A stretch of 41,719 bases of DNA from Deltaproteobacteria bacterium (GTDB lineage: Bacteria; Myxococcota; JACPTQ01): the NCBI GenBank assembly GCA_016192705.1, contig JACPTQ010000058.1, positions 1-41,719 of the forward strand, in the 5' to 3' direction. The first letter of the stretch is position 1. Every line of letters starts with the position of its first letter. The notes beneath the pieces were generated by a model. The model saw nothing but the letters and a program-made list of their open reading frames with translations. It was not told the origin of the DNA and did not search any database. The translations under genes and the position numbers were made by a program. Of this stretch, positions 1,026-33,821 are shown piece by piece.

Positions 1026-2021
1026 GTGGAAGCTTCGATTGTCGTCATCATCGGGGTCGCCCTCGCCTTCGATTTCATCAACGGCTTCCACGACGCCGCG
1101 AACTCGATCGCGACGGTGGTCTCAACGCGCGTCTTGTCGCCCGGCGTCGCCGTCGCGTGGGCCGCGTTTTTTAATTTCATCGCCTTCTTGTTTTTCGATG
1201 TGCACGTCGCGAGCACCATCGGCAAAGGCGTCGTCGCGCCGCAAATCGTCGACCAATGGGTCATCCTCGCAACGCTGCTCGGCGCCATCACGTGGGACCT
1301 CGTCACTTGGTATTTCGGCATCCCGTCGTCGTCGTCGCACGCGCTCATCGGGGCGCTCGCGGGCGCCGCTGTCATCCGCGGCGGGTTCGGCGTTCTCGAT
1401 TCGGGGATCATTAAGATCGGCGTATCGATCGTGCTTTCCCCGGTCATCGGACTCATCCTCGCGACTTTTATCGGTGTAATCGTGACATGGTTATTCAGAA
1501 GGACTGCCCCGTCCAAAGTCGACCGGATCTTTCGGCGCGGGCAGCTCGTCTCTGCGGCGCTTTATAGCTTGGGTCACGGCGGCAACGACGCGCAAAAAAC
1601 GATGGGAATCATCGCCGTCCTTCTTTTTTCGGCGGGCCAATTGGGCGAAACGTTCCACGTCCCGCTCTGGATCGTCCTCTCATGCCATGCCGCAATGGGA
1701 CTCGGAACGCTCGCGGGCGGCTGGCGAATTGTCAAGACGATGGGGATGGGCATCACGAAGCTTCGGCCGGTCGGCGGCTTTTGCGCGGAGACGGGCGGCG
1801 CGGCAACGCTGTTCGTCGCGACCGGCCTCGGCATTCCCGTCTCGACGACGCACACCATCACCGGGTCGATCGTCGGCGTCGGAATTTTACGTCGCTTCTC
1901 GTCGGTGCGTTGGGGGCTCGCGGGTCGCATCGTCTGGGCTTGGATTCTCACGATTCCGATGAGCGCGGCCATCGCAATCGCGTGCTATCTCGCCTTCCGC
2001 GCCGCAGGCTGGGCGCAGTAA
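1026..2021 (+). CDS. pit: PiT family inorganic phosphate transporter
   Basis: This is a 331-residue integral membrane protein of the PiT (PHO4) family, a cation-coupled low-affinity phosphate permease. Two copies of the family signature are visible: an N-terminal GFHDAANSIATVVSTRVLSP near residues 20-40 and an internal GHGGNDAQKTMG near residue 185. A third conserved element, VSTTHTITGSIVGVG, lies toward the C terminus. Many hydrophobic helices span the rest. The GTG start directly follows the stop of the DUF47 gene, giving the common pit-DUF47 two-gene operon. Substrate could also be a divalent-metal phosphate complex. Confidence 0.93.
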   Translation: MEASIVVIIGVALAFDFINGFHDAANSIATVVSTRVLSPGVAVAWAAFFNFIAFLFFDVHVASTIGKGVVAPQIVDQWVILATLLGAITWDLVTWYFGIPSSSSHALIGALAGAAVIRGGFGVLDSGIIKIGVSIVLSPVIGLILATFIGVIVTWLFRRTAPSKVDRIFRRGQLVSAALYSLGHGGNDAQKTMGIIAVLLFSAGQLGETFHVPLWIVLSCHAAMGLGTLAGGWRIVKTMGMGITKLRPVGGFCAETGGAATLFVATGLGIPVSTTHTITGSIVGVGILRRFSSVRWGLAGRIVWAWILTIPMSAAIAIACYLAFRAAGWAQ

Positions 2022-2245
2022 CGAACATTTCGCCGATTCCATTCGCAGCGAGCCGCCACGTTTCCCATGCGCAGTCTCTGCGTTTCGCCAAAGTATTCGC
2101 CGGCAGTTTTTTTCGCCGTAACCCCGATCGCACGGCAAACGCCGTCAGATTTTGCGCCCGCACCACCTCGGCACGACAGCCGCGCATCAGCTAGAACCCC
2201 AATCATTTTGGCCTGTTACGACCGCCCTGTGGGTTTCGTTCGGCC

Positions 2246-2261
2246 TGGCACTCTGGATGCT
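2246..2261 (+). promoter_or_regulatory. Sigma-54-type -24/-12 promoter of the decaheme cytochrome
   Basis: TGGCACTCTGGATGCT matches the sigma-54 consensus (TGGCACG-N4-TTGCW) at all but two positions. The invariant GG and GC dinucleotides are spaced by the required 10 nt. It lies 49 nt upstream of the cytochrome start codon, giving a leader of roughly 39 nt. Dependence on an enhancer-binding protein is implied but no such gene is in the window. Confidence 0.5.
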
Positions 2262-2310
2262 CAGACTTCGTCTCGACGGCGTCTGCTTATCGAACCTGAA
2301 GGAGGTCGCG

Positions 2311-5300
2311 ATGCTGAGGTCAGGCTTTCTATCGGGTCTTCGAGGATCGCTTCTCCCGCTCCTCATCGCGATGGCTTTGAGCTGCCGCGGCGGAACCGGA
2401 AGCGATGGAGAAACGGGTCCAACCGGCTCCGCTGGCAACACAGGCGCAGCCGGTCCGTCGGGCGACGGCGGCACCGGCCCCACGGGGCCCGCGGGGCCGA
2501 GCGGCGATGCAGGGACAGCCGGCGCCAACGGCTCGAACGGCTCGCAAGGGCAGCCTGGCGCGACGCCCACAACGCGAACGACGCTCTTCCCTTGGGAAAA
2601 CATGCCGGGTGTCGTCATCACGATTCTCGATGGAGGCGTTGTCGGCGACGCCGGCATTCCGATCCAAGTGGGCGATAAGCCATCGGTGTCGTTCACCGTG
2701 AAACGAAACGACGGGACATCGCTCCCGCTCAGCGAGCTCGATTACGGGCGCCTCTGGATTTCAGGTCCCACGTCGAACGTCCAACGCGTCATCGCGTCGG
2801 CGTCAGACCTTAGGACAAAGTCGGTTCAAGACGACGCGGGCGTTTACACGTATCAATTCTCGACAGCGATTCCGTCAACTTACCTCGCGCCATACAACGA
2901 CGGACCACTCATCGATGCGGGCGAGCTCACGGGAACCGCCATTCTGGCCGGCACCTACACCGTCGTTGTCGTCGGCTACAAAAACTATACGTACGACGGC
3001 GTTTTCGATCGCGATGCGGGCGTCTCGGTTCCGACGGTCTTCAAGGACGTCTCGAACGCGACGCAGGAGTTCCGCATGGTGAGCGCGGGCGCGCTCGAAA
3101 AGCGCGACGTCGTCCGCACCGCGAACTGCGAGTCGTGCCACGCCAATCTCCGCGCGCATGGCGGAAGCCGCACCGAAGTCGAAACGTGCATCACGTGTCA
3201 CACGGCGGGAATGGAAGACAAGCTCGACGCGGGGAATACGCTCGAGTTCGCTGTCATGATCCACCGCATTCACAATGCGAAACACTTGCCGTCGGTGAAC
3301 GGCGTCCTCGTGACGGCGGACGGTTTTCGAAACTTCGACGCCGGCAAGCGCCCGTACATGATTAACAGCGAAGATTTTTCTGGGATTGGGTTCCCCGTTT
3401 GGCCGAGCCTTAACATCGCCACAATCGCGGAACCCGGATACGGCAGTTGGGACGCGGGCGAAAAGGCGCAGTCCGACGAGATTCGGCGCGGCATCATGGC
3501 GTGCGCGAAATGCCACGGCGATCTGAACGGCGGCTGGACCGACGCGGGGCCGGCCCAAGGCATGAACGCGTTTTCGAAGCCGACTCAGCGCGTCTGCGGA
3601 TCGTGCCACGACGACATCAACTGGGCGATGGCGTACCCGCCGAAGCGAGGAACTCTTGCGATGCCCGGTGGCATCGGCGATTCATTGTGCGCGGCCTGTC
3701 ACGTGGCGACCGAGCCGTCGATCTTCCCATACATGCGAAGCAACCAAGAAGCCCACGTCCATCCGCTCCTTCGCGCATCGGTTAATCCGGGACTTAACCT
3801 GAAGATCCTCGCTGTCACCGAATTCGATGGTGGCAACGGCAACGGCAAGATCGATCCGGGCGAACGCGTCGCCGTCACTTTCACGATGGTCGACAACGCC
3901 GATGCCGCCGTCGCGGGGGGACAACTCGGCACAAACGTGAGTGTTGCGCTCTCAGGCCCGACGTCGAACTACAACATCGTCCTCAATACGTCGATACCCA
4001 AAGATGTCGTTGACGGCGGGCAACCGTTCGTCGTGAACCTCCCAGAGCCCGTGCTCTTCGAGCGACTCGGGACGCCGACGTTTGGTGATGCGGGCGAAGT
4101 TCTCGGGTCGCCGCGAAAGCCGATTTGGACGGTCGGTACCGCACCGACGGTCTATCAGCGGACGGGGGAAGGCGAAACGACATACCTCGCGGCCGCCGCG
4201 AAAGCAGGGCAAAACTACGTCGACCTTGTGAGCGCAGCCGGCTTTAGTCACCACGACGGCGGGCAAGGCGACTACATCGTCATCGACGACCCGGCCCACG
4301 ATGGCGGTGGTGGCGGCGCGCTACAGGAGTACCGGCAAATCGCTTACGTCGAGGACGGAGGGGCACGCGTGTGGTTCTATTCGTCGGGTTCGTATGCGTA
4401 TAAAGCGGGGCTTCGGTTCGCGCACAGCGCGGGCGCGTCGGTCCATAAGGTGTTTCTGACGAAACGCACACAGAGCACGCATTACACGGTTGACGGGCCG
4501 AACGGGACAATCACCGAGGTCGGCGATTCGCTCGATGGCGGCGAAGTCGTGATGCACTACACGACCGATTTCGTGATGCCGAGCGTTTACCCCGAGGCGA
4601 TCAACGAATCTCCCAACATCGGCGCGGAATGGGGCAAATGGGCGGGACTCCCAATCGTCGATGGCACTTACTCGCTCGGCCTTTGGAGCTATCGAAATAT
4701 TTACGTCGGTTCCGATGGCGGCGTTCAGACGAGCGCGCCAACCGGATCGTCGACGGTCACCTTACGCGGGACGTCGCAAGCGGCGAACTTCGATTTCCTC
4801 GTTGGCGATGCGGGCGCGACGACGGCGTACGCGCTCATCTCGGGCGCGGGGAGCACGTGCAACGCGTGCCACAACGACCTCTACTTCCATGGCGGAGGTC
4901 GCCGCGGATTCGACACGTGCAAGATGTGCCACAGCACAGCCGGTAGCGAGGACCGCCCGCCCTACACGGCGCCGAACGCACCTGCAACAGCGGAGACGAT
5001 CAACTTCCGCCGCATGCTCCACCGAATCCACGCCGGCAAAGAGCTTGCGAATGCGACGACTTACGCCATCGTCGGGTACAGCTCCGCCGCGTGGCCCAAC
5101 AACTACGGCTCGTCGACGTTCGACGAAATCGGATTTCCGTCGTGGCCGGACGGCGTCAAGGATTGCGCGAAGTGCCACGGCACGTCGATCGCATGGACAC
5201 AGCCGACCGATCGCACGCACCCGACCGCTCAGCCGGCGACGACGCCATTCCGCGGCTACCAGGTCGCGTGTGGGTCGTGCCACGATGGAGCCGCCGCGCA

Positions 5301-5409
5301 GGCGCACATCAGCTTGCAGACGTACTATGGGACAGAGTCGTGCAGCGTTTGCCACGCGCCCGGCCGCGATCTCGGCGTCGACATGGTACACAAGATCCGA
5401 GCGAGGTGA
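2311..5409 (+). CDS. OmcA/MtrC-family decaheme c-type cytochrome lipoprotein
   Basis: This 1032-residue exported protein has ten CXXCH heme-attachment motifs, at about residues 273, 293, 398, 429 and 460 and then 850, 870, 952, 987 and 1011. The two pentaheme blocks are separated by about 390 residues, as in the MtrC/OmcA fold, where each block follows a beta domain. The family carries electrons across or at the outer surface to extracellular acceptors. The N terminus is a lipoprotein signal ending in a MALSC lipobox. It is followed by a collagen-like Gly-X-Y stretch (about residues 31-85, GPTGPAGPSG type), a probable extended stalk. The start at 2311 is fixed by AAGGAGGT 4 nt upstream. No MtrA- or MtrB-like gene is adjacent, so the trans-envelope partners must lie elsewhere. 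Confidence 0.93.
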   Translation: MLRSGFLSGLRGSLLPLLIAMALSCRGGTGSDGETGPTGSAGNTGAAGPSGDGGTGPTGPAGPSGDAGTAGANGSNGSQGQPGATPTTRTTLFPWENMPGVVITILDGGVVGDAGIPIQVGDKPSVSFTVKRNDGTSLPLSELDYGRLWISGPTSNVQRVIASASDLRTKSVQDDAGVYTYQFSTAIPSTYLAPYNDGPLIDAGELTGTAILAGTYTVVVVGYKNYTYDGVFDRDAGVSVPTVFKDVSNATQEFRMVSAGALEKRDVVRTANCESCHANLRAHGGSRTEVETCITCHTAGMEDKLDAGNTLEFAVMIHRIHNAKHLPSVNGVLVTADGFRNFDAGKRPYMINSEDFSGIGFPVWPSLNIATIAEPGYGSWDAGEKAQSDEIRRGIMACAKCHGDLNGGWTDAGPAQGMNAFSKPTQRVCGSCHDDINWAMAYPPKRGTLAMPGGIGDSLCAACHVATEPSIFPYMRSNQEAHVHPLLRASVNPGLNLKILAVTEFDGGNGNGKIDPGERVAVTFTMVDNADAAVAGGQLGTNVSVALSGPTSNYNIVLNTSIPKDVVDGGQPFVVNLPEPVLFERLGTPTFGDAGEVLGSPRKPIWTVGTAPTVYQRTGEGETTYLAAAAKAGQNYVDLVSAAGFSHHDGGQGDYIVIDDPAHDGGGGGALQEYRQIAYVEDGGARVWFYSSGSYAYKAGLRFAHSAGASVHKVFLTKRTQSTHYTVDGPNGTITEVGDSLDGGEVVMHYTTDFVMPSVYPEAINESPNIGAEWGKWAGLPIVDGTYSLGLWSYRNIYVGSDGGVQTSAPTGSSTVTLRGTSQAANFDFLVGDAGATTAYALISGAGSTCNACHNDLYFHGGGRRGFDTCKMCHSTAGSEDRPPYTAPNAPATAETINFRRMLHRIHAGKELANATTYAIVGYSSAAWPNNYGSSTFDEIGFPSWPDGVKDCAKCHGTSIAWTQPTDRTHPTAQPATTPFRGYQVACGSCHDGAAAQAHISLQTYYGTESCSVCHAPGRDLGVDMVHKIRAR
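2401..2570 (+). repeat. Collagen-like Gly-X-Y repeat tract
   Basis: Just after the lipobox, the cytochrome reading frame encodes a run of Gly-X-Y triplets rich in Pro, Thr, Ser and Ala. The DNA is correspondingly repetitive (GGC/GGG every nine bases). It probably forms an extended stalk between the membrane anchor and the heme domains. Confidence 0.7.
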
Positions 5410-5464
5410 TCGTTAGCCTCGATCCCGCTCGACGGTGACTAGCGAGTGTGCATACTCTTCGAAA

Positions 5465-5980
5465 ATGGCGATGAACCCAACTCTTCAAATCCGCGACGCG
5501 ATGGAACTCGACGTCGATCCAATTCGCGACATCTATAACCATTACGTCCTCACCTCGACCTGCACTTTTGACATCGAGCCGCGCCCGCCTGAGCCGCCCG
5601 AGGTCTGGCTATCACAGCACCCTGCGTCGTATCCCGCCATCGTTGCGTGTGACGGCGACAAAGTCGTCGGATGGGCCACGCTCTCACCCCACCGCACGCG
5701 ATGCGCGTACCAAAACACCGTCGAAAGTTCCGTCTATATCCACCGCGACCAGCATCGACGCGGGATCGGGCGCCAACTCATGAAAGATCTCGTGCAACGA
5801 GCCGCGACGCTTGGCCACCACACCATCCTCGCGGGAATCGCCGACCATCAGCAGGCGAGCCTTCGCCTCCACGAAGCACTCGGCTTCACGTCCGTTGGCT
5901 GCCTTCGCGAAGTCGGCTACAAATTCGGTCGCTGGATCGACGTCGACTGGATGCAACTCCTTTTTTGGCGCGAGTCATAA
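5465..5980 (+). CDS. GNAT acetyltransferase, phosphinothricin/methionine sulfoximine type
   Basis: This 171-residue protein spans the GNAT fold. Visible landmarks are the N-terminal DIYNHYV element typical of the Pat/MnaT subgroup, the acetyl-CoA pyrophosphate loop HRRGIGRQLM, and the conserved C-terminal ASLRLHEALGF plus VGYKFGRWIDVDWMQ. Members N-acetylate L-phosphinothricin, methionine sulfoximine or similar amino acids in the cytoplasm. I chose ATG 5465; ATG 5471 and an upstream GTG at 5435 are alternatives, none with a strong ribosome site. Its end overlaps the convergent aminotransferase gene by 6 nt. The physiological substrate is not determined by sequence. Confidence 0.88.
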   Translation: MAMNPTLQIRDAMELDVDPIRDIYNHYVLTSTCTFDIEPRPPEPPEVWLSQHPASYPAIVACDGDKVVGWATLSPHRTRCAYQNTVESSVYIHRDQHRRGIGRQLMKDLVQRAATLGHHTILAGIADHQQASLRLHEALGFTSVGCLREVGYKFGRWIDVDWMQLLFWRES

Positions 5981-7641: not shown

Positions 7642-9534
7642 ATGCGCCTTGGTCTTGCGATCATAATCATTGCGTCAATTCCGCGACTGGCGCTCGCGCG
7701 CCCGGGCGACGTTGGTGACCCGCTTACCATTCCCGGCGCTCCATTCGTTCACCGCGCATCGACCGCCCTGCGCGGCTCGGCCATCGCTCGATATTCGTGC
7801 AAGCCGACCGCGTCTGAAGCCGGTCCTGAAGTGGTTTACGTGTTTCACGCGCCGGCCTCGGGACGTGTGACCGCAACCGTGGACGGCGACAACGGCAGCG
7901 TCGACGTCGATGTCCATTTGCTTTCGTCGCTCAACATCGACACAACCAAAACAGCGACCAACTGCCTCGCGCGCGGGGACCGCATCGCTGAAACCCGCGT
8001 TCTGGCTGGACCTGTTTTCGCCGTCGTCGACACCTTTCAAGCGGCGACGCACGCTGGCGTCTTCACGCTGCGCTTCGATTTTCAGCCCGACAACGACTGG
8101 GCCCCGCGACCCGTCGCGCGCGGCGTTACGCTTAAAACGAAGGCGTACGACGATTTGTTTGGTGCGCGGCAATCGACGAGTGTCCTTGAGGTCGACCTTG
8201 CTGAGCCAAGCGTCGTGGTCAAACCGATCCTCGCGTCGACCTGCGCAACAACGTCGAGCCTCGCACGAGGTGCAGGAGCCGTCGCGGCGATCAACGCGGG
8301 GTTTTTCGACACGTCGACGGGGAGCTGCGGTTCGGTGTCGCTCGTGAAAATCGATGGACAGCTTCTCGCGCGAAACGCGAAATCGCGAACGTCGTTTGGG
8401 CTCGACGCCCAGCGGCGTCCGCTCATCGAACGCGTGGCGGCTGGTGCCGATTGGCCGGCGGCCACCCAAGCGGTGGGTGGCGTTCCGCGCATCGTGACCG
8501 CAGGGCGCGTCGACGTGCGCACCATCGAAGAGGGCGCGCCCGCTGCTTTTGGAACGGCGCGACACCCGCGTACGACCGTTGGGATTTCGACGGGTGGCGG
8601 GCTTGTTTTTGCGACGGTCGACGGCCGCACCACCGCGGGCGCTGGGATGTCGCTCGCGGAGCTCGCGCAGTGGATGATTTGGCTCGGCGTCGCAAACGCG
8701 GTCAATTTGGACGGCGGCGGAAGCACAACGATGTGGGTCAAGGGCGAACCATGGGGTGGTGTCGTGAATTACCCGAGCGACAACGGGCGCGCCGATCACG
8801 CGGGCGAGCGCGCCGTGGGAAGCGCGCTTGGAGTCTGGGCGGCGCCGCTCGATCGAGACCTCGTTTGGCTGACTTCGCCGCCGCCGTCGGTGCGACTCCG
8901 GAGCGGCGACACTTGGGCGTTTGAGGCGGTGGTCGCGGATCCCGAGGGTCGCGCCGTGACAATTCGCGCGGCGGTGCTCGGACTGACCGCTTCCAATCGC
9001 GTGGCCGTGCAAGACCGCGGCGATGGAACCGCGCAGATCGCATTTACGGCGGATGCAACCGATGTGTCGCGGTCGCCAATCCGCTTCGAGATCGCGATCG
9101 ACGTTGCAGGTGGACGGAGTTTCTCAACGACGATTGCGATCACCGTCGACGCGCCCGACGCCGGCTCACCGCCCCTTGCCGATGCCGGACAAAACCCGGA
9201 CCTCAATTCGGACGCAGGTTCGAACCCATCCGCCGACGACGCGGGTGTTGATCCCTCGATCGAAATTGACGGGGGCGCTTTACGTGATCCTTCGACCACC
9301 GATGGTGGCCCATCACCATCCGCGCCACCAACGACGCCGAACCCTGAATCGCCGCTGCCAGGCGAACCGCGTTCGGCGGACGAGACCACCGGTTGTTCAG
9401 CAGGGCTCATTTCCGGCGCGTTATCGACCGCGATCGGTTGGCCCCTTTTTGTCGCGTTTGCGTCTCTCGTTACTCTGGCTTCTCGTCGCCGCGGCAAAGA
9501 ACGCGCAAATACTCGTTCTGGCTGCGATCGATAA
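7642..9534 (+). CDS. Exported phosphodiester glycosidase (NAGPA-like) protein with MYXO-CTERM-like tail
   Basis: This is a 630-residue secreted protein. It has an N-terminal signal peptide (residues 1-19), then a beta domain resembling bacterial pre-peptidase C-terminal domains (about 40-150). A phosphodiester glycosidase (NAGPA/DUF2233) domain follows (about 165-395), with AINAGFFD (residue 216), HPRTTVGI and NLDGGGSTTMW (residue 355). Next come an Ig-like segment and an Asp/Ala/Gly/Pro-rich linker (about 515-580). The C terminus has a cysteine (C585), a hydrophobic helix and an RRR cluster, as in MYXO-CTERM sorting tails of myxobacterial surface proteins. The likely role is cleavage of phospho-sugar linkages at the cell surface, but the substrate is unknown. 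The 3' end overlaps the convergent SH3 gene by 65 nt. Confidence 0.85.
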   Translation: MRLGLAIIIIASIPRLALARPGDVGDPLTIPGAPFVHRASTALRGSAIARYSCKPTASEAGPEVVYVFHAPASGRVTATVDGDNGSVDVDVHLLSSLNIDTTKTATNCLARGDRIAETRVLAGPVFAVVDTFQAATHAGVFTLRFDFQPDNDWAPRPVARGVTLKTKAYDDLFGARQSTSVLEVDLAEPSVVVKPILASTCATTSSLARGAGAVAAINAGFFDTSTGSCGSVSLVKIDGQLLARNAKSRTSFGLDAQRRPLIERVAAGADWPAATQAVGGVPRIVTAGRVDVRTIEEGAPAAFGTARHPRTTVGISTGGGLVFATVDGRTTAGAGMSLAELAQWMIWLGVANAVNLDGGGSTTMWVKGEPWGGVVNYPSDNGRADHAGERAVGSALGVWAAPLDRDLVWLTSPPPSVRLRSGDTWAFEAVVADPEGRAVTIRAAVLGLTASNRVAVQDRGDGTAQIAFTADATDVSRSPIRFEIAIDVAGGRSFSTTIAITVDAPDAGSPPLADAGQNPDLNSDAGSNPSADDAGVDPSIEIDGGALRDPSTTDGGPSPSAPPTTPNPESPLPGEPRSADETTGCSAGLISGALSTAIGWPLFVAFASLVTLASRRRGKERANTRSGCDR

Positions 9535-10210
9535 GCGTTCGTCCCACTTCGCGATCGACGAACCGAATCGTCGTGTTGCGCGCAATGTTGTCGGCGTCGA
9601 CGAGTAGAATCTCTCCATCCCGCAGCGTGTAACGCCCACGGTTGGCGATGTTCGACGACCGCTCGAGCCGAAAATAGTAATCCCCGGACGGCCAAAAAAT
9701 GATGAACGCGCGCTGCGCCCCGTCACACCACGTACCGTGGAGCCACCGGTCGATCGCCTTGAGCCGCTCCTTGACGCCCTCGGCCTCCGCCTTTTTTCCA
9801 GCGCTGTCATACGCCGCGAGGAGCGCGACGAAAACTCGCCGGTCGGTCGGTGCGGCCCTTGTCGCCGCCTCCAAATACGCCATAGCCTTTATGTTGGCGT
9901 CTCCATGAAGCAATTTCATTCCGCGGTCGTAGAGCGAAGCGCCCGCCGACGTTCGGGGCGCAACGTGTTCGCGCGGAAGCCAGCCTTCACTTCCATCCGC
10001 GTCAACGCGCATCCAACGCCCGCGCTGCCCCTTTTTCTTCACCTCCGTCCCGAGAGCCAACGTCTTGACGGACGCCGCGTTGGAATCCGGCTTCAACCGC
10101 ATCACAGCGTCGGATTCAACAACGACCAGCACGGGCCGCTCTTTCCGAGCGCCATCGGCACCCGCCGAAGTAACCACGACGAGAATGGCCGCGGACAGAC
10201 TTCGCCACAT
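9470..10210 (-). CDS. Exported SH3-domain protein with TPR-like segment
   Basis: This 246-residue protein begins with a signal peptide (MWRSLSAAILVVVTSAGADG) and then a bacterial SH3 domain (about residues 27-82; the WMRVDADGSEGWLP strand pair is typical). A short helical, TPR-like stretch (about 95-145) and a C-terminal beta-rich lipocalin-like region (RGRYTLRDGEILLVDAD) follow. Bacterial SH3 domains usually bind cell-wall peptides, so a periplasmic structural or sensing role is plausible. I chose the start at 10210 because it begins at the signal peptide. The frame extends to 10255 without added features. Confidence 0.7.
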   Translation of the reverse strand: MWRSLSAAILVVVTSAGADGARKERPVLVVVESDAVMRLKPDSNAASVKTLALGTEVKKKGQRGRWMRVDADGSEGWLPREHVAPRTSAGASLYDRGMKLLHGDANIKAMAYLEAATRAAPTDRRVFVALLAAYDSAGKKAEAEGVKERLKAIDRWLHGTWCDGAQRAFIIFWPSGDYYFRLERSSNIANRGRYTLRDGEILLVDADNIARNTTIRFVDREVGRTLIDRSQNEYLRVLCRGDEKPE

Positions 10211-10299
10211 ACCGACAGTGTGCGAACCTTCGCACCGAAAATCAAGCGCTCGCAACGCCTTGCATTCAGCAGCGACCCATCGTACCTACTCGAGCGCCC

Positions 10300-11796
10300 A
10301 TGGTTCGTCTCTTTTGGATAACCCTCGCGCTCGTCACGGCCGCGAAACTCCTCTTCATCGGCACAACAATGGTCGTCGACGACGAAGCCCATTACTTCGC
10401 CTGGTCACGCCACCTCGATCTCGGCTACATCGACAACGGCCCCTTCGTCGCCTTTCTCATTCGCGCGTCGACCGCCCTTTTCGGCGCGTCGTCGTTCGGC
10501 ATTCGCGCCCTCACAGTCTTCCTCTCGACCGCCCTCGCCGCGTACCTTTTTGTTATTTTTCGCCGCTCGTTCGGCGTCCGCGCTGCCTTTACCTCGGGGA
10601 TGCTTCTCTCGACGACGCTCCTCTTCTTCGGCAGCACAGTCGTCACAACCCCCGACTCACCGATGTGGCTCGCCATGGCACTCGCGATCGTCCTTTATCA
10701 CCGCGCGTTCTTCGTCTCGCCGCGCGCCTTCTACGCCGCCGGCTTCTTCCTCGGCATCTCCGCCCTTTCAAAAATCTCGGTCTTCCTCCCAGCCGTCGGC
10801 GTATTTCTCTTTCCGTTCGTCATCCGCGAAATGCGCAGTTTCATACGCCGCGCCGATTTCTACTTCTCCTTTCTCATCGCTGCGGTCGTCGTCTCGCCGT
10901 TCGTCGTCTGGAACTTTTTGAACGACTTCGCCTTCCTGAGATTCAAAGGGCCGATGGCTTTTCAGTCGGGCTCTCTCGCCGACTTCGGCGCATTTTGGGC
11001 CGCGCAACTCGGCCTCCTTTTTCCGCCGCTCGCCGTCCTCAGCGTCGGCCTACCGCTCGTGATCGTGTTTCAGCGTTTCATCCAGCGCCGCGACACGCCG
11101 CCACATCTCGTCTTTTTCGCTCTCACCGCGGCCTTCCCACTTCTCTTCTTCGTCATCGGATCGATTCGCACGCGCTACGAGGCGTATTGGTCGATCGCCT
11201 TTGCGCTCCCCGGGATTCTCCTCGTTGCCGCTTACGTGGGAACCGACGCCAAGCGATTTCGCCGCACGCTCGCGGTGCAACTCGTTGGTGGTGCGCTCTC
11301 GATCGCCGCCTCCATCCTTCAAGTGCACACGACGCTAATTCCGCTCTCTCCCACGGCCGATGTCACGCGCCGCTATTTCAAGTTCTCGGCGTTCCCGACT
11401 GAAATCCGTGCATTCCTCGCGTCGCGCCCCGACCTCGCACGCTATCGCGTCTTGTCGAACAACTATCAGATCCCCTCGATGCTCATCACGTACGCCGCGC
11501 CCACTTTAGTTCCGACGTGCCTATCGATCGACGGCTATCACGATACCTTTTACTTGAAGCTCGTCACTGATTCCTCGCTCATCGGGCACGATCATCTTTT
11601 TCTCTTGGAGGGCGATGCGTTCCCTGACGCTTTTCGCGCGCACTTCGTTTCCGTCGAATTCGTACAGTCGTTTGTTTCACGTCGAGCGGGCGCAACGATC
11701 GCAACATTCTCGCTCTGGCTGGTTCGCAATTACCGTGGCCGTGCCGCTATGGAACAACCGGCGTCGTCGTCAGTCGCCCCGCGCGAATCGCACTGA
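10300..11796 (+). CDS. GT39-type (ArnT/PMT-like) membrane glycosyltransferase
   Basis: This 498-residue polytopic membrane protein has about ten hydrophobic helices. The first periplasmic loop carries DDEAHYFAWSRHLDLGYIDN, closely resembling the catalytic Asp-Glu loop of family 39 glycosyltransferases, which use polyprenyl-phosphate sugars. This suggests transfer of a sugar to lipid A, protein or surface polysaccharide on the outer face of the inner membrane. The C-terminal third is a soluble, likely periplasmic domain. The end overlaps the convergent lipoprotein gene by 50 nt. Acceptor and donor are not predictable here. Confidence 0.85.
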   Translation: MVRLFWITLALVTAAKLLFIGTTMVVDDEAHYFAWSRHLDLGYIDNGPFVAFLIRASTALFGASSFGIRALTVFLSTALAAYLFVIFRRSFGVRAAFTSGMLLSTTLLFFGSTVVTTPDSPMWLAMALAIVLYHRAFFVSPRAFYAAGFFLGISALSKISVFLPAVGVFLFPFVIREMRSFIRRADFYFSFLIAAVVVSPFVVWNFLNDFAFLRFKGPMAFQSGSLADFGAFWAAQLGLLFPPLAVLSVGLPLVIVFQRFIQRRDTPPHLVFFALTAAFPLLFFVIGSIRTRYEAYWSIAFALPGILLVAAYVGTDAKRFRRTLAVQLVGGALSIAASILQVHTTLIPLSPTADVTRRYFKFSAFPTEIRAFLASRPDLARYRVLSNNYQIPSMLITYAAPTLVPTCLSIDGYHDTFYLKLVTDSSLIGHDHLFLLEGDAFPDAFRAHFVSVEFVQSFVSRRAGATIATFSLWLVRNYRGRAAMEQPASSSVAPRESH

Positions 11797-15447: not shown

Positions 15448-16488
15448 ATGCGGTTTTTCCTTCTGTTTTTGGTTTTTGTTCCCGTGTCGTGCGGTGGTCT
15501 CGCCCCGCTCCCTAAGGAACGCCATTTCACGTCGCTCCGGCAGCTCACGTTTGGTGGCGAGAACGCTGAAGCTTATTTTTCGCCCGACTCGCGAACGCTC
15601 GTTTTCCAATCAACACGGGGAAGTTTTCGAAACACGGCGCCGAAGGGCGAGTGGGCGTGCGACCAGATTCTCACAATTCCAGTAGACGGCGGTAGAGCAG
15701 AGCTCGTTTCAACTGCGACGGGGCGAACGACGTGTGGCTACTATTTGCCGGCCGGCGACATTTTGTTTTCGAGCACGCATGCGGCGTCGCCCAATTGTCC
15801 GCCAAAACCGTCGTACGCGCGCGGGTATGTTTGGCCCATCTATGACACGTACGACATCTATTTGAGGAAGGCGAATGGCGCCCTCGCCCCGCTCATCGCG
15901 GCACCGGGGTACGACGCGGAGGCGACGGTTTCGCCGATGGGCGATCGGATTGTTTTTACGAGCACGCGCGACGGCGACCTTGAGATTTACACGGCGGCGA
16001 TCGATGGAAGCGATGTGCGGCGACTTACGACGACGCCAGGGTATGATGGCGGCGCTTTTTTTTCGCCGGATGGGAAGCGAATCGTTTATCGCGCGCACCA
16101 CCCAACGGGTGCGGCGCTCATCGAGTACCGCGCGCTGCTGAAAGCGGGGCTCGTGCGACCGTCGATCATGGAAATCTTTGTGATGGATGCCGACGGCAAG
16201 AACCATCGCCAGCTCACGCGGTTTGGCAAGGCGAGTTTCGCGCCTTTTTTTCACAACAACAATCGGCAGATTTTTTTTGCGTCGAATTTTCACGATCCGC
16301 GTGGGCGCAATTTTGATATCTATCTGATGGCCGACGACGGCTCGCGGCTCGAGCGAATCACGTGGAGCCCCGATTTTGATGGGTTCCCGATGATGTCGCC
16401 CGACGGAAAGATGCTCGCATTCTCGTCGAATCGCGGGGGACGGATTCGCGGCGAGACAAATGTGTTTGTTGCGGAGTGGCAGGACTAA
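15448..16488 (+). CDS. TolB-like WD40/PD40 beta-propeller lipoprotein
   Basis: This 346-residue lipoprotein starts with MRFFLLFLVFVPVSC, a short signal ending in a lipobox. The rest is a set of PD40 propeller blades, visible as repeated FSPDSRTLVFQSTRG, VSPMGDRIVFTSTRDG, FSPDGKRIVYRA and MSPDGKMLAFSSNRGG blocks. Such propellers bind peptides or act as scaffolds in the periplasm, as in TolB, but there is no TolB N-terminal domain and no tol genes nearby. ATG 15448 was preferred over an upstream in-frame start at 15358 because it starts the signal peptide. Confidence 0.8.
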   Translation: MRFFLLFLVFVPVSCGGLAPLPKERHFTSLRQLTFGGENAEAYFSPDSRTLVFQSTRGSFRNTAPKGEWACDQILTIPVDGGRAELVSTATGRTTCGYYLPAGDILFSSTHAASPNCPPKPSYARGYVWPIYDTYDIYLRKANGALAPLIAAPGYDAEATVSPMGDRIVFTSTRDGDLEIYTAAIDGSDVRRLTTTPGYDGGAFFSPDGKRIVYRAHHPTGAALIEYRALLKAGLVRPSIMEIFVMDADGKNHRQLTRFGKASFAPFFHNNNRQIFFASNFHDPRGRNFDIYLMADDGSRLERITWSPDFDGFPMMSPDGKMLAFSSNRGGRIRGETNVFVAEWQD

Positions 16489-16500
16489 GGGGACAGTCGT

Positions 16501-16529
16501 TTGACGGAGTTTTTTTTTGCCGGTAAAAG
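16501..16529 (+). promoter_or_regulatory. Promoter of tRNA-His
   Basis: TTGACG at 16501-16506 and TAAAAG at 16524-16529 are spaced by exactly 17 nt. Initiation would occur about 12 nt before the tRNA 5' end. Confidence 0.6.
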
Positions 16530-16547
16530 AATCGATTGCCAACGTAC

Positions 16548-16622
16548 GGTGGGTATAGCTCAGTTGGTTAGAGCACTGGATTGTGGCTCCAGTTGTCGGG
16601 GGTTCGAAACCCCTTACCCACC
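16548..16622 (+). tRNA. tRNA-His (anticodon GTG)
   Basis: A full cloverleaf is readable: acceptor GTGGGTA pairs with TACCCAC, the anticodon stem CTGGA/TCCAG encloses TTGTGGC (anticodon GTG), and the T arm is GGGGGTTCGAAACCCCT. An extra G at -1 facing C73 is the identity element of tRNA-His. CCA is not encoded. The 3' end overlaps the end of a serine recombinase gene on the other strand, marking it as an integration site. Confidence 0.95.
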
Positions 16623-18132
16623 CATTATCTCAGAAAAGGGCGCTCGCGAGTGTTTTCGCCCGTCTTTTGCGGCGGTTTCAGAGTTCGAAAGGGCAAGGAG
16701 ATCGAACGGAGGTCGGTAGGTGACTTCGAGGGCGCCTGCTTTCCAAGAAGCCTTCGCGACAACGCAATCGAGAAGCCGCCGCTTTTCGTGCGGTGTTTGC
16801 TTCGCGTAAAGGTCGCACGCGCGACTTGCAAGTTCGAGGAGCCGCGCCCCTTCGTCGACGTACGTTCGATTCGCCGACTGGTGGTTCGCGATCGTCCGCA
16901 ATAGGTTGTCCTGTTCGAGGCGCCACTCCGAAGCCTTGCGGTCGAAAAACTCCAGCGTGACGCGACCGTCGAGCTTGTCGATGTACATCTGGTCAATGCG
17001 CCCCTGAAGTCGCGTGTACTCTGCTTGCAGGCGCGCGACCGCCTCGTCGTGAAATTTCTTCTCGTCCGCGTGGCTCTGTTTCAGCGCCTCCGCAACCCAT
17101 GTGATGACGTTGTCATCAAATATGATCTGCTCAAGAACGGTTTCGAACTCTTCGGCGAGGCGCTCCTCGCGAACATACGGCTCCGGACATTTTCCCTTGT
17201 ACCCGGTGCAGTGGTAGTAAACGTACCGGTCTTTTTTCTTCTCGCCGACAAGCCCGCACCCGCAATGACCGCACGTTACGAAACCCGAGAAGGCGAAATC
17301 GTGCGTCGCCGTCCGGTGCCGCTTCCCTCGGTGCGTGCTGCGAACCATCTGTGCCATTTCCCAAACGTCGTTTTCGACAAGGGGCGCATGTGCCCCCTTG
17401 TAGAGTTTCCCCTTCCAACTAAAGCGCCCCGTGTAGATCGGGTTCCGCAGAATCTTGTGAATGGTCGACGTTGGGACAGGTTTTCCGCTGCCACGAAACA
17501 CCAGCCCTTCCTCTTTCGCTTTTCGCGCAACCTCTTTCACCGATAAGTTTCCGGCCGAATAAAGCTCAAACACCCTTACGACGAAAGGGGCGACGTTCGG
17601 ATCGACTTCGATGATTCGTTTCCCGTCCGGCCGGCGCATGCCCGGGCCAAATCCCCTGTTCCGCCTTCTCGATCATTCCCTTGCGCGTCTCCTCGCTCAG
17701 GTTGTCGATGTAGTTCTTCGCCATGAGTACCTTGATCCCGTGAAGGAGCTTGTCTGAAGACCGCGAGCCCTCCGAAATCATTTGGCCTTCCTTGACGAAG
17801 TGAATCTCGACGCCAAGCTCATCGAGCGTGACCCAGTCTTTCAGGTTGCGGTACAGCCGATCCGTTTTCTCGACCAAAATGGCGCGACACGAAGCACGAT
17901 TCTTTCGAAGAAACGCGATCATCTCACCAAACCCCACGCGCCCAGCCCTCTTTGCCGTTTCGACGTCGACGTACCGCTCAACGAGCGTCATGTTGCGCGT
18001 CGCTGCATACTCTTCAATCAATTTGATCTGCGCGGGTATCGAGAACCCTTCTTTCTCTTGCTCCTTCGAGGAAACGCGCGCATATAGCACCGCTCGCACC
18101 GGACCCATATCAGCCAATCGTTTCACGTTCAT
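16614..18132 (-). pseudogene. Large serine recombinase, broken by a frameshift
   Basis: Two minus-strand frames together encode one recombinase of about 500 residues. The upstream part (18132 to about 17640) carries the resolvase catalytic domain with YARVSSKEQ (nucleophilic Ser). The downstream part (about 17640 to 16614) carries the Recombinase domain (RRPDGKRIIEVDPN), a zinc ribbon with CGHCG and a later Cys pair, and a coiled coil. The break falls at GIWPGHAP / RRPDGKR, where related proteins are continuous. The CGCC repeats on each side suggest a small deletion (about 13-14 nt, inferred). The stop codon lies inside the tRNA-His 3' end. The enzyme is probably inactive unless the shift is a sequencing error. 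Confidence 0.85.
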
Positions 18133-25473: not shown

Positions 25474-28400
25474 GTGGCCAAACTCGAAGACCTTCAGCCG
25501 AACGCCGCCCTTCGCGGAGTGCTTCCCGATAGAATCGTCACCGTCATCGCGTCCCAGTGGTTTGGCTCCGATGCCGTCGAGATCACCTTCAAGGACCCGT
25601 CCGGCCGCTTGGACCAGGAAATCCTCTATCGCGATCGGGAGGCGTCCCTCGAGATCGTCGAGAAGGGCCGCCCCTGGAGCTTTGACGCCGACGGCGCACT
25701 CTTTCGCCTTGTCTCCGAGGCCCATCGGATTCGTCTCGCCCACCTTTTTGACCCCGTGCTCGCCGTCCACACGTCGCTCGTCGACCCGCTCCCGCACCAA
25801 ATCACCGCCGTCTACGAGACAATGCTCCGCCGCCAACCGCTCCGGTTCCTCCTCGCCGACGACCCCGGCGCCGGGAAAACCATCATGGCCGGCCTCCTCA
25901 TCAAAGAACTCATTATTCGCGGCGACCTCCAGCGTTGCCTCGTCGTGTGTCCGGGCGTGCTCGCCGAGCAGTGGCAGGACGAGCTCTCGCGCCGCTTCCA
26001 CCTCCCGTTCGACATCCTCACCAACGACAAACTCGAAGCCGCGCGCACCGGCAACTGGTTTGTTGAGAACAGCCTTGTCATTGCTCGCCTCGACAAGCTG
26101 TCGCGCGACGAAGACGTCCAGGCGAAGCTCAAGGCGCCCGATTGCCGCTGGGACCTCGTCATCTGCGACGAGGCGCACAAGATGTCCGCGACGTACTTCG
26201 CCAGCGAGATCAAATACACGAAGCGCTACATCCTGGGGCGACTCCTCGCCGGCCTCACGCGCCACTTCTTGCTCATGACGGCGACGCCGCATAACGGCAA
26301 GGACGAGGATTTTCAACTCTTCATGGCGCTTCTCGACGCGGATCGGTTCGAGGGGCACTTCCGAAACGGTGCGCCGACCGCCGACGTGTCGGACCTGATG
26401 CGTCGCATGGTGAAGGAGCGCCTCCTCAAGTTCGATGGGACGCGGCTCTTCCCGGAGCGGCACGCGCACACGGTCCCATTCGAACTCTCGGACAATGAAA
26501 TGCGCCTTTACGACGAGGTCACGGAGTATGTGCGCGAGGAGTTCAATCGCGCCGATGCGCTCCAAAACGACAAGCGCGCCGGGACGGTCGGTTTCGCGCT
26601 GACGATTTTACAGCGCCGCCTCGCGTCGTCGCCCGAAGCGATTTTCCAGTCGCTCCACCGCCGCCACGAGCGCCTCGAAAAACAGCTTCGGGAACTTGAG
26701 CAGATGCAGCGCGACGCGGCCGTCAAGGCGCTCGCGAGCGGAGGCCCCGCCCTCAGCGAAGACGACATCGAAGACTTCGATGATCTCCCCGACGACGAAG
26801 CGAACGAAGAAGAGGCGCTTGTTCTCGATCAGGCGACCGCGGCGCGGAGCGTCGGCGAGCTCAAGGCCGAGATCGCAACGCTGAAACGCCTTCGAGATCT
26901 CGCCGGTGAAGTTCGCCGCAGCGCCGTCGATCGAAAGTGGCAAGAGCTTGCGAAGGTCCTCGACGATCAGCGCTTCGCGGAAGCGCGCGGGGTGCGGCCC
27001 AAGCTCGTTGTTTTCACCGAGCATCGCGACACGCTCAACTACTTGGTTCAGCGCATCTCAACGCTACTTGGGCGCCCCGAGGCGGTCGTGGTCATCCACG
27101 GCGGAATGAGACGCGAGGACCGACGGCAGGCCGAAGAGGAGTTCAAGCACAACCCAGACGTACAAGTCCTGGTTGCGACCGATGCCGCGGGCGAAGGGAT
27201 CAACCTTCAGCGCGCGCACCTCATGGTCAACTACGACTTGCCGTGGAACCCGAACCGCATCGAGCAGCGGTTTGGCCGCATTCACCGCATCGGACAGACC
27301 GAGGTTTGTCACCTTTGGAACCTCGTCGCCGACAAGACGCGTGAGGGCGACGTTTACCGGCGGCTCCTCGAGAAGCTTGAGCGGGCGACCGACAGCCTTG
27401 GCGGGCAGGTTTTCGATGTGCTCGGGAAGGTGCAGTTCGAGGGGAAGCCGCTTCGCGACCTGATGGTTGAGGCGATTCGCTACGGCGAGCGGCCGGAGGT
27501 GCGGGCGCAGCTTTTCGAGGTCGTCGAGAGCGCAATCGACCACAAGCGCCTGCAAAGCCTCATCGACGACCAGGCTCTCGCGCAAGACGTCATGGATACG
27601 AGCCGCGTCGCCCGCATCCGCGAGGAGATGGAGCGGGCCGAGGCGCGGCGGCTGCAGCCGCACTTTATCGAGTCGTTCTTCGTTCACGCCTTTCGGCAGC
27701 TCGGCGGCACCATGCATGATCGGGAGACGGGGCGCTTCGAGATTACGCACGTCCCATCGATCATTCGGAACGGCGATGCACGAGAGCCTGTTCTCCTTCG
27801 GTATGAGCGAATCGCGTTTGACAAATCGAGCGTCCAGATTCCGGGCAAGGCGACCGCGGCGTTTGTCTGTCCCGGCCATCCGCTCCTCGATGCGACAATA
27901 GATGTGACTCTGAGCCGGCACCGCGATCTGCTGCGGCGCGGCGCGGTCCTTGTTGACAAGGACGACCTCAGCTTGAACCCGCGCGTCCTTTTCTATCTCG
28001 AGCACTCGCTCCAAGATGCGCTCGTCACGCGAAGCGGGGAGCGGCGAACGATTTCAAAGCGAATGCTCTACGTTGAAATCGACGCGGCCGGTGCCGCAAC
28101 CCACATTCAATACGCGCCGTATCTCGACTACGAGCCGCTTCGCCCCGACGACCCGAGCGTCGCGGAAATTCTCGCGCGCCCTGAGTGCGCGTGGATTACG
28201 CGTGACGTCGAAGCGAAGGCGCAGGGTTACGCGGTCGCGCGGGTTGTCCCCGAGCATCTGGACGAAGTGCGTGGGCAGCGGCTTCTGCTGATTCGGAAGA
28301 CGCGCGCGGCGGTCAAAGAGCGGCTGACGCACGAGATAAACCACTGGGACAACCGGGCGGCGGATTTGAAGGAGAAGGAAGCGGCCGGAAAGCCCGCGGC

Positions 28401-28992
28401 GCGAATGAATTCGATCGAGGCGCGGCGGCGCGCCGACGAGATGCAGGGGCGCTTGGAGCGGCGGCTCGCGGAGCTTAACCGCGAAGAGCAGATTTCGGCG
28501 TTGCCGCCGGTCGTGATGGGCGGGGCGCTTGTGGTGCCGGCGGGGCTGCTCGCGGCGGTGAAGGGGCGCACGGCGGCGAGCGATGCGAAGGGGGCGACCA
28601 AGGCGGTAATTGACAAACAGGCCGTGGCCGCGCGGGCGCGGGCGATTGTGATGGCGGTTGAGCGCGGCCTTGGGTTCGAGCCGCGCGACGTCGAGACCGA
28701 AAAACGTGGTTTCGACATCGAGAGCCGCGACGCAAAGACGGGGCGGCTCCGTTTCATCGAGGTCAAGGGGCGCGACTCCGACGCGGCGACGGTCACCGTC
28801 ACGTCGAACGAGATCCGTTACTCGCTGAACGAACCCGACAACTTCATCCTCGCCATCGTCGAATTCCTTCCGGTCGGCGACCGCCGCGTCCACTACGTCC
28901 GCTGCCCCTTCCAGCGCGCGCCGGACTTCGGCGCAACCAGCGTGAACTACGATCTTTCCGAGCTTCTCGCCAAGGCGGAGGCGCCGAGGTGA
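25474..28992 (+). CDS. SNF2-like DEAH helicase with C-terminal DUF3883 domain
   Basis: This 1172-residue superfamily 2 (SNF2/RapA-like) ATPase shows Walker A DPGAGKT (about 131-137), DEAH (232-235), TATPHNGK (269-276), ATDAAGEGINL (570 region) and QRFGRIHRIGQ (598-608). After a helical region it ends in a DUF3883 domain. There GFDIES and FIEVKGR place D1081, E1096 and K1098 in a D...ExK pattern as in PD-(D/E)XK folds. Helicases of this type accompany DUF1156 methylases and DUF499 ATPases in defence islands and probably translocate on or remodel phage DNA. The GTG start is fixed by AAGGAGGT 7 nt upstream. It overlaps the next gene by 4 nt. Confidence 0.92.
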   Translation: MAKLEDLQPNAALRGVLPDRIVTVIASQWFGSDAVEITFKDPSGRLDQEILYRDREASLEIVEKGRPWSFDADGALFRLVSEAHRIRLAHLFDPVLAVHTSLVDPLPHQITAVYETMLRRQPLRFLLADDPGAGKTIMAGLLIKELIIRGDLQRCLVVCPGVLAEQWQDELSRRFHLPFDILTNDKLEAARTGNWFVENSLVIARLDKLSRDEDVQAKLKAPDCRWDLVICDEAHKMSATYFASEIKYTKRYILGRLLAGLTRHFLLMTATPHNGKDEDFQLFMALLDADRFEGHFRNGAPTADVSDLMRRMVKERLLKFDGTRLFPERHAHTVPFELSDNEMRLYDEVTEYVREEFNRADALQNDKRAGTVGFALTILQRRLASSPEAIFQSLHRRHERLEKQLRELEQMQRDAAVKALASGGPALSEDDIEDFDDLPDDEANEEEALVLDQATAARSVGELKAEIATLKRLRDLAGEVRRSAVDRKWQELAKVLDDQRFAEARGVRPKLVVFTEHRDTLNYLVQRISTLLGRPEAVVVIHGGMRREDRRQAEEEFKHNPDVQVLVATDAAGEGINLQRAHLMVNYDLPWNPNRIEQRFGRIHRIGQTEVCHLWNLVADKTREGDVYRRLLEKLERATDSLGGQVFDVLGKVQFEGKPLRDLMVEAIRYGERPEVRAQLFEVVESAIDHKRLQSLIDDQALAQDVMDTSRVARIREEMERAEARRLQPHFIESFFVHAFRQLGGTMHDRETGRFEITHVPSIIRNGDAREPVLLRYERIAFDKSSVQIPGKATAAFVCPGHPLLDATIDVTLSRHRDLLRRGAVLVDKDDLSLNPRVLFYLEHSLQDALVTRSGERRTISKRMLYVEIDAAGAATHIQYAPYLDYEPLRPDDPSVAEILARPECAWITRDVEAKAQGYAVARVVPEHLDEVRGQRLLLIRKTRAAVKERLTHEINHWDNRAADLKEKEAAGKPAARMNSIEARRRADEMQGRLERRLAELNREEQISALPPVVMGGALVVPAGLLAAVKGRTAASDAKGATKAVIDKQAVAARARAIVMAVERGLGFEPRDVETEKRGFDIESRDAKTGRLRFIEVKGRDSDAATVTVTSNEIRYSLNEPDNFILAIVEFLPVGDRRVHYVRCPFQRAPDFGATSVNYDLSELLAKAEAPR

Positions 28993-29858
28993 GAAAGGCC
29001 AACCGGATCACGCGAGACGCGACCGACCAAGTGAGATTCTTGGTCAAGACATTCCTGGCAAGCCAACCGGCTCCCGCTGAACGCCCACGAGTCGTCGAAA
29101 GGGTTCTTTCGTTACTTGGACTTCAAGAGAGTTTCCTGGCGGATCAGAACAACGCGGCTTTCGCTTGCAACGGCGCCAATTGGAATCCCCTTGCGTTTCA
29201 CCTGTCGAAGCCCAAGCACATCGGAAGCTGGCCCGCACCCGAGACGATGCTGGACCTACTCAGCTACCTGTTCCGCCATCCCGACTTCAAAGCCTTTAAG
29301 AAGCGGGCGCGGGAAGACTTTCTTGCTCGAATTTCGCAGGAACACCGCCGCATATTCGATTGGGCCGACTTCTCGTCAGCTCTTTCGGAAATCGCGCTTC
29401 TCAAATGGATTTCAAAGTGCCGAGAGTTGCAATGTCATCTCCGTGAGCGCGCAAGAAGATCCAAGACCTCAGACATTCGTGTCACTTGCTCGGGAGTTGA
29501 TGTCCTTGTCGAAGCGAAAATGCAGTTCTCGCGGCAGGACCAGACCTCGATTTCAAATCCAGAAGCAATGTTTGGATCCGTTGCCGCTCGGGGCGATATC
29601 GCCAAAAGGATATGGCAGAACATCGAACACAAAATTGTGGAGGGACAGGTTTCCACCTCTGTGCCTTCCGTATTGCTAATAGACGTGACATTTGTCAACG
29701 ACGTCTACTTTTGTTTCGGATACCCCGCGCTAATCAACGCATTCGTCAGCTCAGTCGCGAGGCAACGACCCGCGAACCAAACGTCAGGCGTTCCGGCGTT
29801 CCTGTACTTCCTCTCTAACCACGCACAGGGGGTTGAGTGGGTTCGGTCCCTCGAATGA
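28989..29858 (+). CDS. Unknown defence-operon protein, candidate PD-(D/E)XK nuclease
   Basis: This 289-residue protein is in no family I recognise. Residues E134 (ALSEIALLKW), D162 (TSDIRV), E175 and K177 (VLVEAKMQF) form the helix-E / D / E-x-K arrangement of PD-(D/E)XK nucleases. The D to ExK spacing is normal, and a helix with K206, R207 and Q210 follows. The GTG start overlaps the helicase stop (GTGA), so the two are translationally coupled and probably work together. It occupies a position where related systems carry accessory proteins. It would be the cleaving subunit if the fold is right; motif reading by eye only. Confidence 0.6.
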   Translation: MRKANRITRDATDQVRFLVKTFLASQPAPAERPRVVERVLSLLGLQESFLADQNNAAFACNGANWNPLAFHLSKPKHIGSWPAPETMLDLLSYLFRHPDFKAFKKRAREDFLARISQEHRRIFDWADFSSALSEIALLKWISKCRELQCHLRERARRSKTSDIRVTCSGVDVLVEAKMQFSRQDQTSISNPEAMFGSVAARGDIAKRIWQNIEHKIVEGQVSTSVPSVLLIDVTFVNDVYFCFGYPALINAFVSSVARQRPANQTSGVPAFLYFLSNHAQGVEWVRSLE

Positions 29859-29907
29859 GAAGGTGTTCGGATTGGATTCTCCATTCCGGCGAAAGGAGAT
29901 GTGCTTA

Positions 29908-30246
29908 ATGGCCATTCAAGAACTTCCACAGCCAATACAAGCGGGGGGTGGACTGATTGGGGATCCTCGATTCCCCACCATCGTGTCGCATCATTTCAGG
30001 AATGGGACAGTGATGTTTTTCGCCCATTCTCTACCTGGCAACTTCCTCATGAACTTTTTCTCGCCCGTGGATCGCACCAAACCCGCGGCATCCTATGTCG
30101 TGTCTGGCGTAAAATCAGTGGCGCTGAAGGAGCTCGAAGATCTGTTCGGCTCGTATCAAGGATCGTCGCCTGCCCTGGCAGCCCCCTCCGTTCGAACTTT
30201 GCCAGTCCAGAGGACGTTAGATCCCGGTGGATTTCCCCTCCCATGA
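29908..30246 (+). CDS. Small protein of unknown function in the defence operon
   Basis: This 112-residue protein has no recognised family. The first 85 residues look like a compact mixed alpha/beta domain with a hydrophobic core (TVMFFAHSLPGNFLMNFF). The last 25 are Pro/Ser-rich and probably disordered. I chose ATG 29908 with AAAGGAG about 9 nt upstream; ATG 29899 and a start at 29833 are in frame. It sits between the candidate nuclease and the methylase with gaps of about 50 nt, so it is likely part of the same transcript. It may be a regulator or adaptor. Confidence 0.55.
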   Translation: MAIQELPQPIQAGGGLIGDPRFPTIVSHHFRNGTVMFFAHSLPGNFLMNFFSPVDRTKPAASYVVSGVKSVALKELEDLFGSYQGSSPALAAPSVRTLPVQRTLDPGGFPLP

Positions 30247-30290
30247 TTTTTGGAACCGCAGCGGAGAGCATTTGAGATGAGCGCCCGATT

Positions 30291-33170: not shown

Positions 33171-33177
33171 GGCGAGT

Positions 33178-33576
33178 TCAATGGGCGCGAAGAATTTCCC
33201 AAAGCTGGCGCGGCGAGACGATTCGGATCGGCGGTCGCTTGAGCGCCAAGAGCTCCGCGTCACCCGTGACGAGACAATCGGCCTTCGCTGCAACCGCCGA
33301 CGCGATGACCCATTCATCATCCCGATCCTTGAGGCCGACATGAAGATGGCGGACGGGCTTCGGCGCAATCTCGTTCGCAAGCAACAAGTTCTCAACCCTT
33401 CCAATCTTATCCACGGTCATGCGAAAGCGTTCTCGGAGTACCCGCCGCAGTTCGGTGAGTACCACCTCGCCAAGAACGACTTCCTGCTTCGAAACGACCT
33501 CGCGAAACAGGTCGTAACAAAGCCCGCGCGCGATAAACACGCTCACCAGAACGTTCGTGTCGAAAAAGACCCTCAA
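33178..33576 (-). CDS. PIN-domain toxin (VapC-like)
   Basis: This 132-residue PIN domain starts with VFFDTNVLVS (first acidic residue and Asn). It has an inner Glu in LTELRRVL, and DRDDEWVIASAVAAKADCLVTGD carries the remaining acidic metal ligands. PIN toxins are Mg-dependent RNases. The TTG start overlaps the antitoxin stop by 4 nt (TTGA), the usual coupling. It is transcribed against the defence operon, and its 3' end is 7 nt from the methylase stop. Confidence 0.9.
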   Translation of the reverse strand: MRVFFDTNVLVSVFIARGLCYDLFREVVSKQEVVLGEVVLTELRRVLRERFRMTVDKIGRVENLLLANEIAPKPVRHLHVGLKDRDDEWVIASAVAAKADCLVTGDAELLALKRPPIRIVSPRQLWEILRAH

Positions 33577-33791: not shown

Positions 33792-33821
33792 GTATGACAT
33801 TGTAACACGACGAGGAGAACC

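Follow-up and report, generated by a model that had tools for sequence, protein, structure and literature searches.

An OmcA/MtrC-family decaheme lipoprotein with a collagen-like stalk and a candidate barrel–cytochrome conduit in a Myxococcota genome

The decaheme gene, its product, and its stalk

The window analyzed here, a stretch of 41,719 nucleotides, is the entire contig C63 (JACPTQ010000058.1) of a Deltaproteobacteria bacterium placed in the Myxococcota, whose genome assembly (GCA_016192705.1) comprises 5.21 Mb in 88 contigs and is 96.65% complete. Positions 2311..5409 of the forward strand, on which all features of this gene lie, encode an OmcA/MtrC-family decaheme c-type cytochrome lipoprotein of 1032 residues. 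Starts, signal peptides, and lipoboxes were assigned by simple rules. An upstream start for this open reading frame, TTG 2152, was dropped in favor of ATG 2311 because the ribosome-binding site (AGGAGG, 2300..2305) and the lipoprotein signal both belong to the latter. The signal peptide (2311..2382) ends before Cys25 (2383-2385), the presumed lipid-anchored residue, which is invariant in 5/5 aligned homologues. As the initial annotation had described, ten CXXCH motifs form two pentaheme blocks, the first at 3127..3702 (residues 273, 293, 398, 429, and 460) and the second at 4858..5355 (residues 850, 870, 952, 987, and 1011), whereas shuffled versions of the protein contain 0.011 such motifs on average and at most two.

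The proposal that this is an extracellular decaheme cytochrome is supported by family, domain, and predicted fold. The protein scores 258.9 bits against the NCBIfam OmcA/MtrC family TIGR03507, above the curated cut-off of 209.3, and matches the MtrC/MtrF Pfam domain PF22113 twice; MtrF is its closest solved sequence in a PDB sequence search. A model of the protein without its stalk (951 residues, 41 sequences) reached a pLDDT of 86.2, and in a Foldseek search of the PDB its best 14 matches were all OmcA/MtrC proteins, with TM scores by target of 0.51-0.67. With family, domains, and predicted fold computed, the product is presumed to be an outer-surface terminal cytochrome that carries heme and transfers electrons. 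It resembles Shewanella OmcA, MtrC, and MtrF (TIGR03507; PDB 4lmh, 4lm8, 3pmq) in its ten hemes, two pentaheme blocks, beta domains, lipid anchor, and predicted fold. However, the Shewanella chains comprise approximately 670-700 residues, compared with 1032 here, and the stalk of the window protein is longer.

This stalk is a collagen-like Gly-X-Y stretch at residues ~27-85 (2389..2565) with one register break. Its longest unbroken run, 11 triplets, exceeds every one of 2000 shuffles of the same stretch (mean 3.4, maximum 8), in agreement with the repeat first noted after the lipid anchor; the match to the collagen domain PF01391, at 23.2 bits, falls under the Pfam gathering cut-off of 27.2. 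The accompanying impression that such a stalk is not associated with MtrC/OmcA did not hold, and the idea that it is foreign to the family was rejected. At least five unbroken triplets precede the first heme in 25 of 30 phylum loci (L025-L054, one per genome, from the 62 genomes with a decaheme match; table read by eye), a glycine run taking their place in the other five, and in the MtrF chain of the PDB the lipid-anchor cysteine is directly followed by a short Gly-X-Y-like stretch, where the window protein has a longer one. Triplet counts reach 18 in a paralogue on contig C27 of the same genome and 37 in genome G009, triplets are few in many Planctomycetota homologues, and genome G051 has a different repeat. 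Since stalk length varies and other repeats replace Gly-X-Y, the sequences fit a role as a spacer. The stalk also occurs on other multiheme lipoproteins, one with eight hemes on contig C47 of the window genome and one with nine in G051. In locus L020, a lipoprotein with eight hemes and a collagen-like stalk (8189-10780, +) has a heme count and layout that are not of the OmcA/MtrC type. A literature search judged by title returned no publication on a collagen stalk in OmcA/MtrC, and a search combining collagen-like, multiheme, and lipoprotein likewise found none.

A compositional trait was also observed. Asp-Ala-Gly and Asp-Gly-Gly tripeptides number 18 in the window protein (2311-5409) and 14 in the C27 paralogue (L009 9167-12178), against 0-4 in 39 homologues. 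Across the loci of the window genome, they occur at 12.75 per 1000 residues in lipoproteins and at 1.3-1.6 in other proteins, the value for lipoproteins of relatives being 1.7.

Because the contig begins just 2.2 kb ahead of the decaheme gene, the upstream neighborhood of this gene is truncated, and its visible part extends no further than a PhoU-like gene and a PiT-type phosphate transporter gene. The neighbors of the decaheme gene are phosphate-transport, acetyltransferase, and aminotransferase genes. Every other open reading frame of the window has at most one CXXCH motif, and no MtrA/MtrB-like gene was found among the window genes scanned; the remark that no MtrAB partner is adjacent is thus correct within the contig, whose upstream view ends 2.2 kb from the gene. 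Farther along, three large genes in a row (25474-37139, +) are matched over nearly their full length by the PADLOC models HmaA, HmaB, and HmaC (1632, 1558, and 1150 bits), and HEC-07 matches a fourth gene at 39556-41268. This Hma anti-phage system appears complete, and serine-recombinase genes lie nearby at 16614-18132.

A sigma-54-type promoter and the genes it may serve

A -24/-12 (sigma-54-type) promoter element, CTGGCACTCTGGATGCT, occupies 2245..2261 on the forward strand, 65-66 bases 5' of the start codon. Its core at 2246-2261, TGGCACTCTGGATGCT, has GG and GC separated by ten bases and is close to consensus. Scored with general weights for sigma-54 sites, it is the top-scoring such site in the window, and no other site within 139.5 kb of the window genome reaches its score. 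At that stringency, which allows one mismatch, a mean of 0.84 chance matches is expected per window; the window alone is therefore no proof of a promoter, and genome-wide tests are better suited. The genome contains one rpoN. The strict pattern YTGGCAC-N5-WTGCW occurs six times in the 5.2-Mb genome compared with 11 times for a reversed-pattern control, and the raw count is thus not above the control. Judged by eye, however, all six strict sites sit 40-70 bases 5' of a start codon that is followed by a lipoprotein signal. They are located on contigs C37, C41, C48, C82, and C63 of the window genome (G000; loci L139-L142, with the window site at 2245). A fixed rule applied to the whole genome placed TGGCAC-N6-TGC sites, the window included, 5' of a lipoprotein-like open reading frame in 13/33 cases, compared with 0/28 for N7 spacing, 0/33 in the opposite direction, and 31/3000 at random positions in the examined loci. 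One further site precedes a PilA-like pilin.

Relatives were compared by spacing. Wrong-spacing controls took the place of an antisense-strand control, which is open to bias from strand composition. Among decaheme upstream regions, 12/63 score at least 10 at the right spacing (the window included, and two of the twelve being near-copies), against 0-3 at each of eleven wrong spacings. Open reading frames with at least four hemes gave 14/90 against 0-3, whereas non-heme frames of the same loci gave 5/159 at the right spacing against 1-7 at wrong ones. The link to lipoproteins appears mostly confined to the lineage of the window: in nine relatives, the same crude rule placed only 8 of 71 strict sites before a lipoprotein, and at least one of these eight is doubtful by eye. 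The suggestion that such sites mark lipoproteins across the phylum was thus not borne out.

The original call of a sigma-54-type promoter with correct GG/GC spacing is well supported, now by more than the motif itself, namely rpoN, the placement of the sites before lipoprotein genes, and the spacing-specific enrichment. A chance match, with another promoter serving the decaheme gene, would accord with the 0.84 matches expected per window and with a strict count not above its reversed control. We nonetheless regard it as improbable given the placement of the matches before lipoprotein genes, the enrichment at the right spacing in relatives, and the failure to find a sigma-70-like site at 1900-5600. 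The decaheme gene is thus a candidate for sigma-54 dependence, in which sigma-54 RNA polymerase would transcribe it alongside further lipoprotein genes of the window genome, and a lineage-specific sigma-54 lipoprotein regulon, weaker in the nine relatives, is possible. RpoN has been linked to electron-transfer cytochromes (omcB) in Geobacter, and rpoN is reported to be essential in Myxococcus xanthus (PMC2725144); a connection of sigma-54 with lipoproteins and the cell exterior has been described in bacteria (PMC3162934). The word cytochrome is absent from the main text of the latter account, whereas the strict sites described here concentrate on the lipoprotein genes of one lineage, one of which is the decaheme. 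The sigma-54 result offers a concrete, testable regulon.

A barrel and a 13-heme cytochrome as a candidate conduit in place of MtrAB

The genome search for MtrA/MtrB homologues that the initial annotation had called for yielded no MtrB. The MtrB/PioB model TIGR03509 found nothing in the window genome, 14 control genomes were also silent, and 1/195 phylum genomes gave a match; this match, at 1.3e-67, indicates that the model is able to find one. For the MtrA/DmsE decaheme model TIGR03508, four weak matches were obtained in the window genome, none of them above the cut-off. The idea of a working MtrB in the window genome was dropped, none having been found in this 96.65% complete genome and only one in the phylum. 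In this respect, the genome differs from the Shewanella Mtr system, having no detected MtrB and no MtrA-type match above cut-off.

Absence of any outer-membrane conduit had been named as grounds for abandoning the electron-transfer reading, and contig C23 does encode a candidate conduit: a 419-residue barrel protein and an adjoining 13-heme protein of 349 residues. The barrel model has 22 strands and a pLDDT of 88.9, and the protein has no Pfam or NCBIfam match. A structural search with the barrel turned up TonB-type receptors, ushers, and porins with unrelated functions; MtrB is absent among the matches listed, though the two may be kin. The module also lies beside 30-heme and 6-heme cytochromes and a Qrc/ACIII-like quinone complex, whose matches are below the cut-offs of the NCBIfam Qrc models. 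In locus L023, the 30-heme cytochrome (8419-10599, -; 727 residues) adjoins the barrel/13-heme module and the Qrc/ACIII-like complex, and a sigma-54 activator is encoded at 16325-17854.

Relatives of the decaheme were sought by scanning contigs. With the single window protein as query no relative was found, whereas an alignment as query recovered 77 decaheme loci, many of which are truncated where a contig ends. Outside the window genome, the closest homologues are mostly from Planctomycetota MAGs, the best at 35-46% identity. In a tree, the window gene and its C27 paralogue, which is the second decaheme of the genome and 51% identical to the window protein, group at 99/99 support inside a set of 20 rows, 15 of them Planctomycetota.

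Within the phylum, the decaheme family is present in 62/195 genomes, and the barrel family (~400 residues), searched with a profile of four barrels, in 58/195. Both occur in 54 genomes, the barrel alone in 4, the decaheme alone in 8, and neither in 129 (Fisher p 1.9e-34, counts that include related genomes and ignore kinship). Taking one locus per genome, the decaheme lies within 10 kb of the barrel in at least 23 of the 58 barrel loci. A 12- or 13-heme open reading frame stands beside the barrel in 28/30 barrel loci, the two without being short stretches, and a 12/13-heme profile, which also catches some smaller multihemes, matches in 28/77 decaheme loci. Four relatives have the decaheme beside other multihemes. 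In three of them, L058, L079, and L107 (the same place as L019), its neighbors include a 13-heme cytochrome, a CxxxxCH multiheme protein, and a barrel-like protein of ~400 residues, and counterparts of all three are on C23 of the window genome; L058 also has a NapC/NrfH-like gene. The association is incomplete. The eight decaheme genomes without a barrel match include G051, although its decaheme adjoins multihemes, and four barrel genomes have no decaheme. In family f13, taken as the Anaeromyxobacter group, barrels and decahemes are mostly not neighbors, G071 being the one exception among the matches listed.

The module invites comparison with published porin–cytochrome (Pcc) clusters. Three Anaeromyxobacter genomes are described as having two-gene clusters of a porin-like protein and a periplasmic cytochrome, and the cluster cytochromes of Anaeromyxobacter and Kuenenia have 12-14 hemes in 338-344 residues (PMC4245776). 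Likened by that published description, the C23 module is similar in gene content, heme number, and size, and it shows the Pcc arrangement of a small barrel gene adjoining a multiheme gene. However, the Anaeromyxobacter clusters are reported there as lacking an outer-membrane cytochrome (PMC4245776), whereas here the module and an OmcA/MtrC decaheme tend to occur in the same genomes, often next to each other. An account of porin–cytochrome clusters in other phyla names neither OmcA nor MtrC in its text (PMC7399161), while MtrC-type decahemes have already been listed in many genera, with Anaeromyxobacter included in the decaheme figure of that work (PMC3669403). A literature search at the level of titles and listings found no fitting publication on OmcA/MtrC and extracellular electron transfer in Myxococcota. 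That an OmcA/MtrC decaheme serves as the outer partner of a Pcc-type conduit is a proposal of the present analysis.

A candidate electron route and what it would mean

The reading that we favor, and consider reasonably probable from these genes and their distribution, is an Mtr-type head on a Gly-X-Y stalk, fed by a Pcc-type conduit instead of MtrAB and expressed with sigma-54. Each step from quinol to head is drawn from gene content. Quinol would be oxidized at the inner membrane by the Qrc/ACIII-like complex of C23, and electrons would cross the periplasm via the 6- and 30-heme proteins and traverse the outer membrane through the 13-heme protein inside the 22-strand barrel, after which the decaheme head on its stalk would receive them. 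The decaheme itself would be exported, lipid-anchored at Cys25, held off the outer membrane by the Gly-X-Y stalk, and able, via its ten hemes, to give electrons to an acceptor or take them from a donor outside the cell. We infer both the physical partnership of decaheme and conduit and the direction of electron flow.

It counts against this explanation that the window decaheme and the candidate conduit are encoded on separate contigs, and that the C27 decaheme competes with the window decaheme for the conduit. The gene neighbors of the C27 decaheme are a MoCo oxidoreductase, an NrfD/DsrP-like protein, a tetraheme protein, and a Porin_O_P protein, a set that may constitute an alternative electron route. 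The decaheme could accordingly work with this conduit-like set, comprising a Porin_O_P-type barrel, a MoCo/NrfD-like complex, and mono- and tetraheme proteins, with the window copy being a spare paralogue. The close relationship of the two decahemes, which share the same kind of stalk, and the Porin_O_P domain itself are consistent with such an arrangement. However, no multiheme of MtrA size adjoins the C27 porin, and when this porin served as a phmmer query, the other decaheme loci searched yielded no relative, so that we consider this arrangement unlikely. Slightly less probable still is a cytochrome that stands free on the surface or on vesicles, is fed by other carriers outside the cell, and does without its own conduit. 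Such a protein would suit the orphan position of the gene in the window, among phosphate-transport, acetyltransferase, and aminotransferase genes, but it sits poorly with the 54 genomes that have both decaheme and barrel, and with the adjacency of the two in at least 23 of 58 loci.

A bolder extension, which we put forward as speculative, is that OmcA/MtrC decahemes in Myxococcota and related phyla are the missing outer partners of the two-gene, Anaeromyxobacter-type Pcc conduit, a further route across the outer membrane, and that the stalk forms a triple helix. In that case, the head would be a trimer of 30 hemes held far out from the membrane.

A genome that encodes an OmcA/MtrC head is usually read as having the MtrCAB route. 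In the phylum genomes examined, about a third have such heads and almost none have MtrB; the heads instead track the pair of barrel and 12/13-heme cytochrome. If the partnership is real, it would explain the outer end of a conduit that has been described without an outer cytochrome and would change how electron-transfer capacity is read from genomes.
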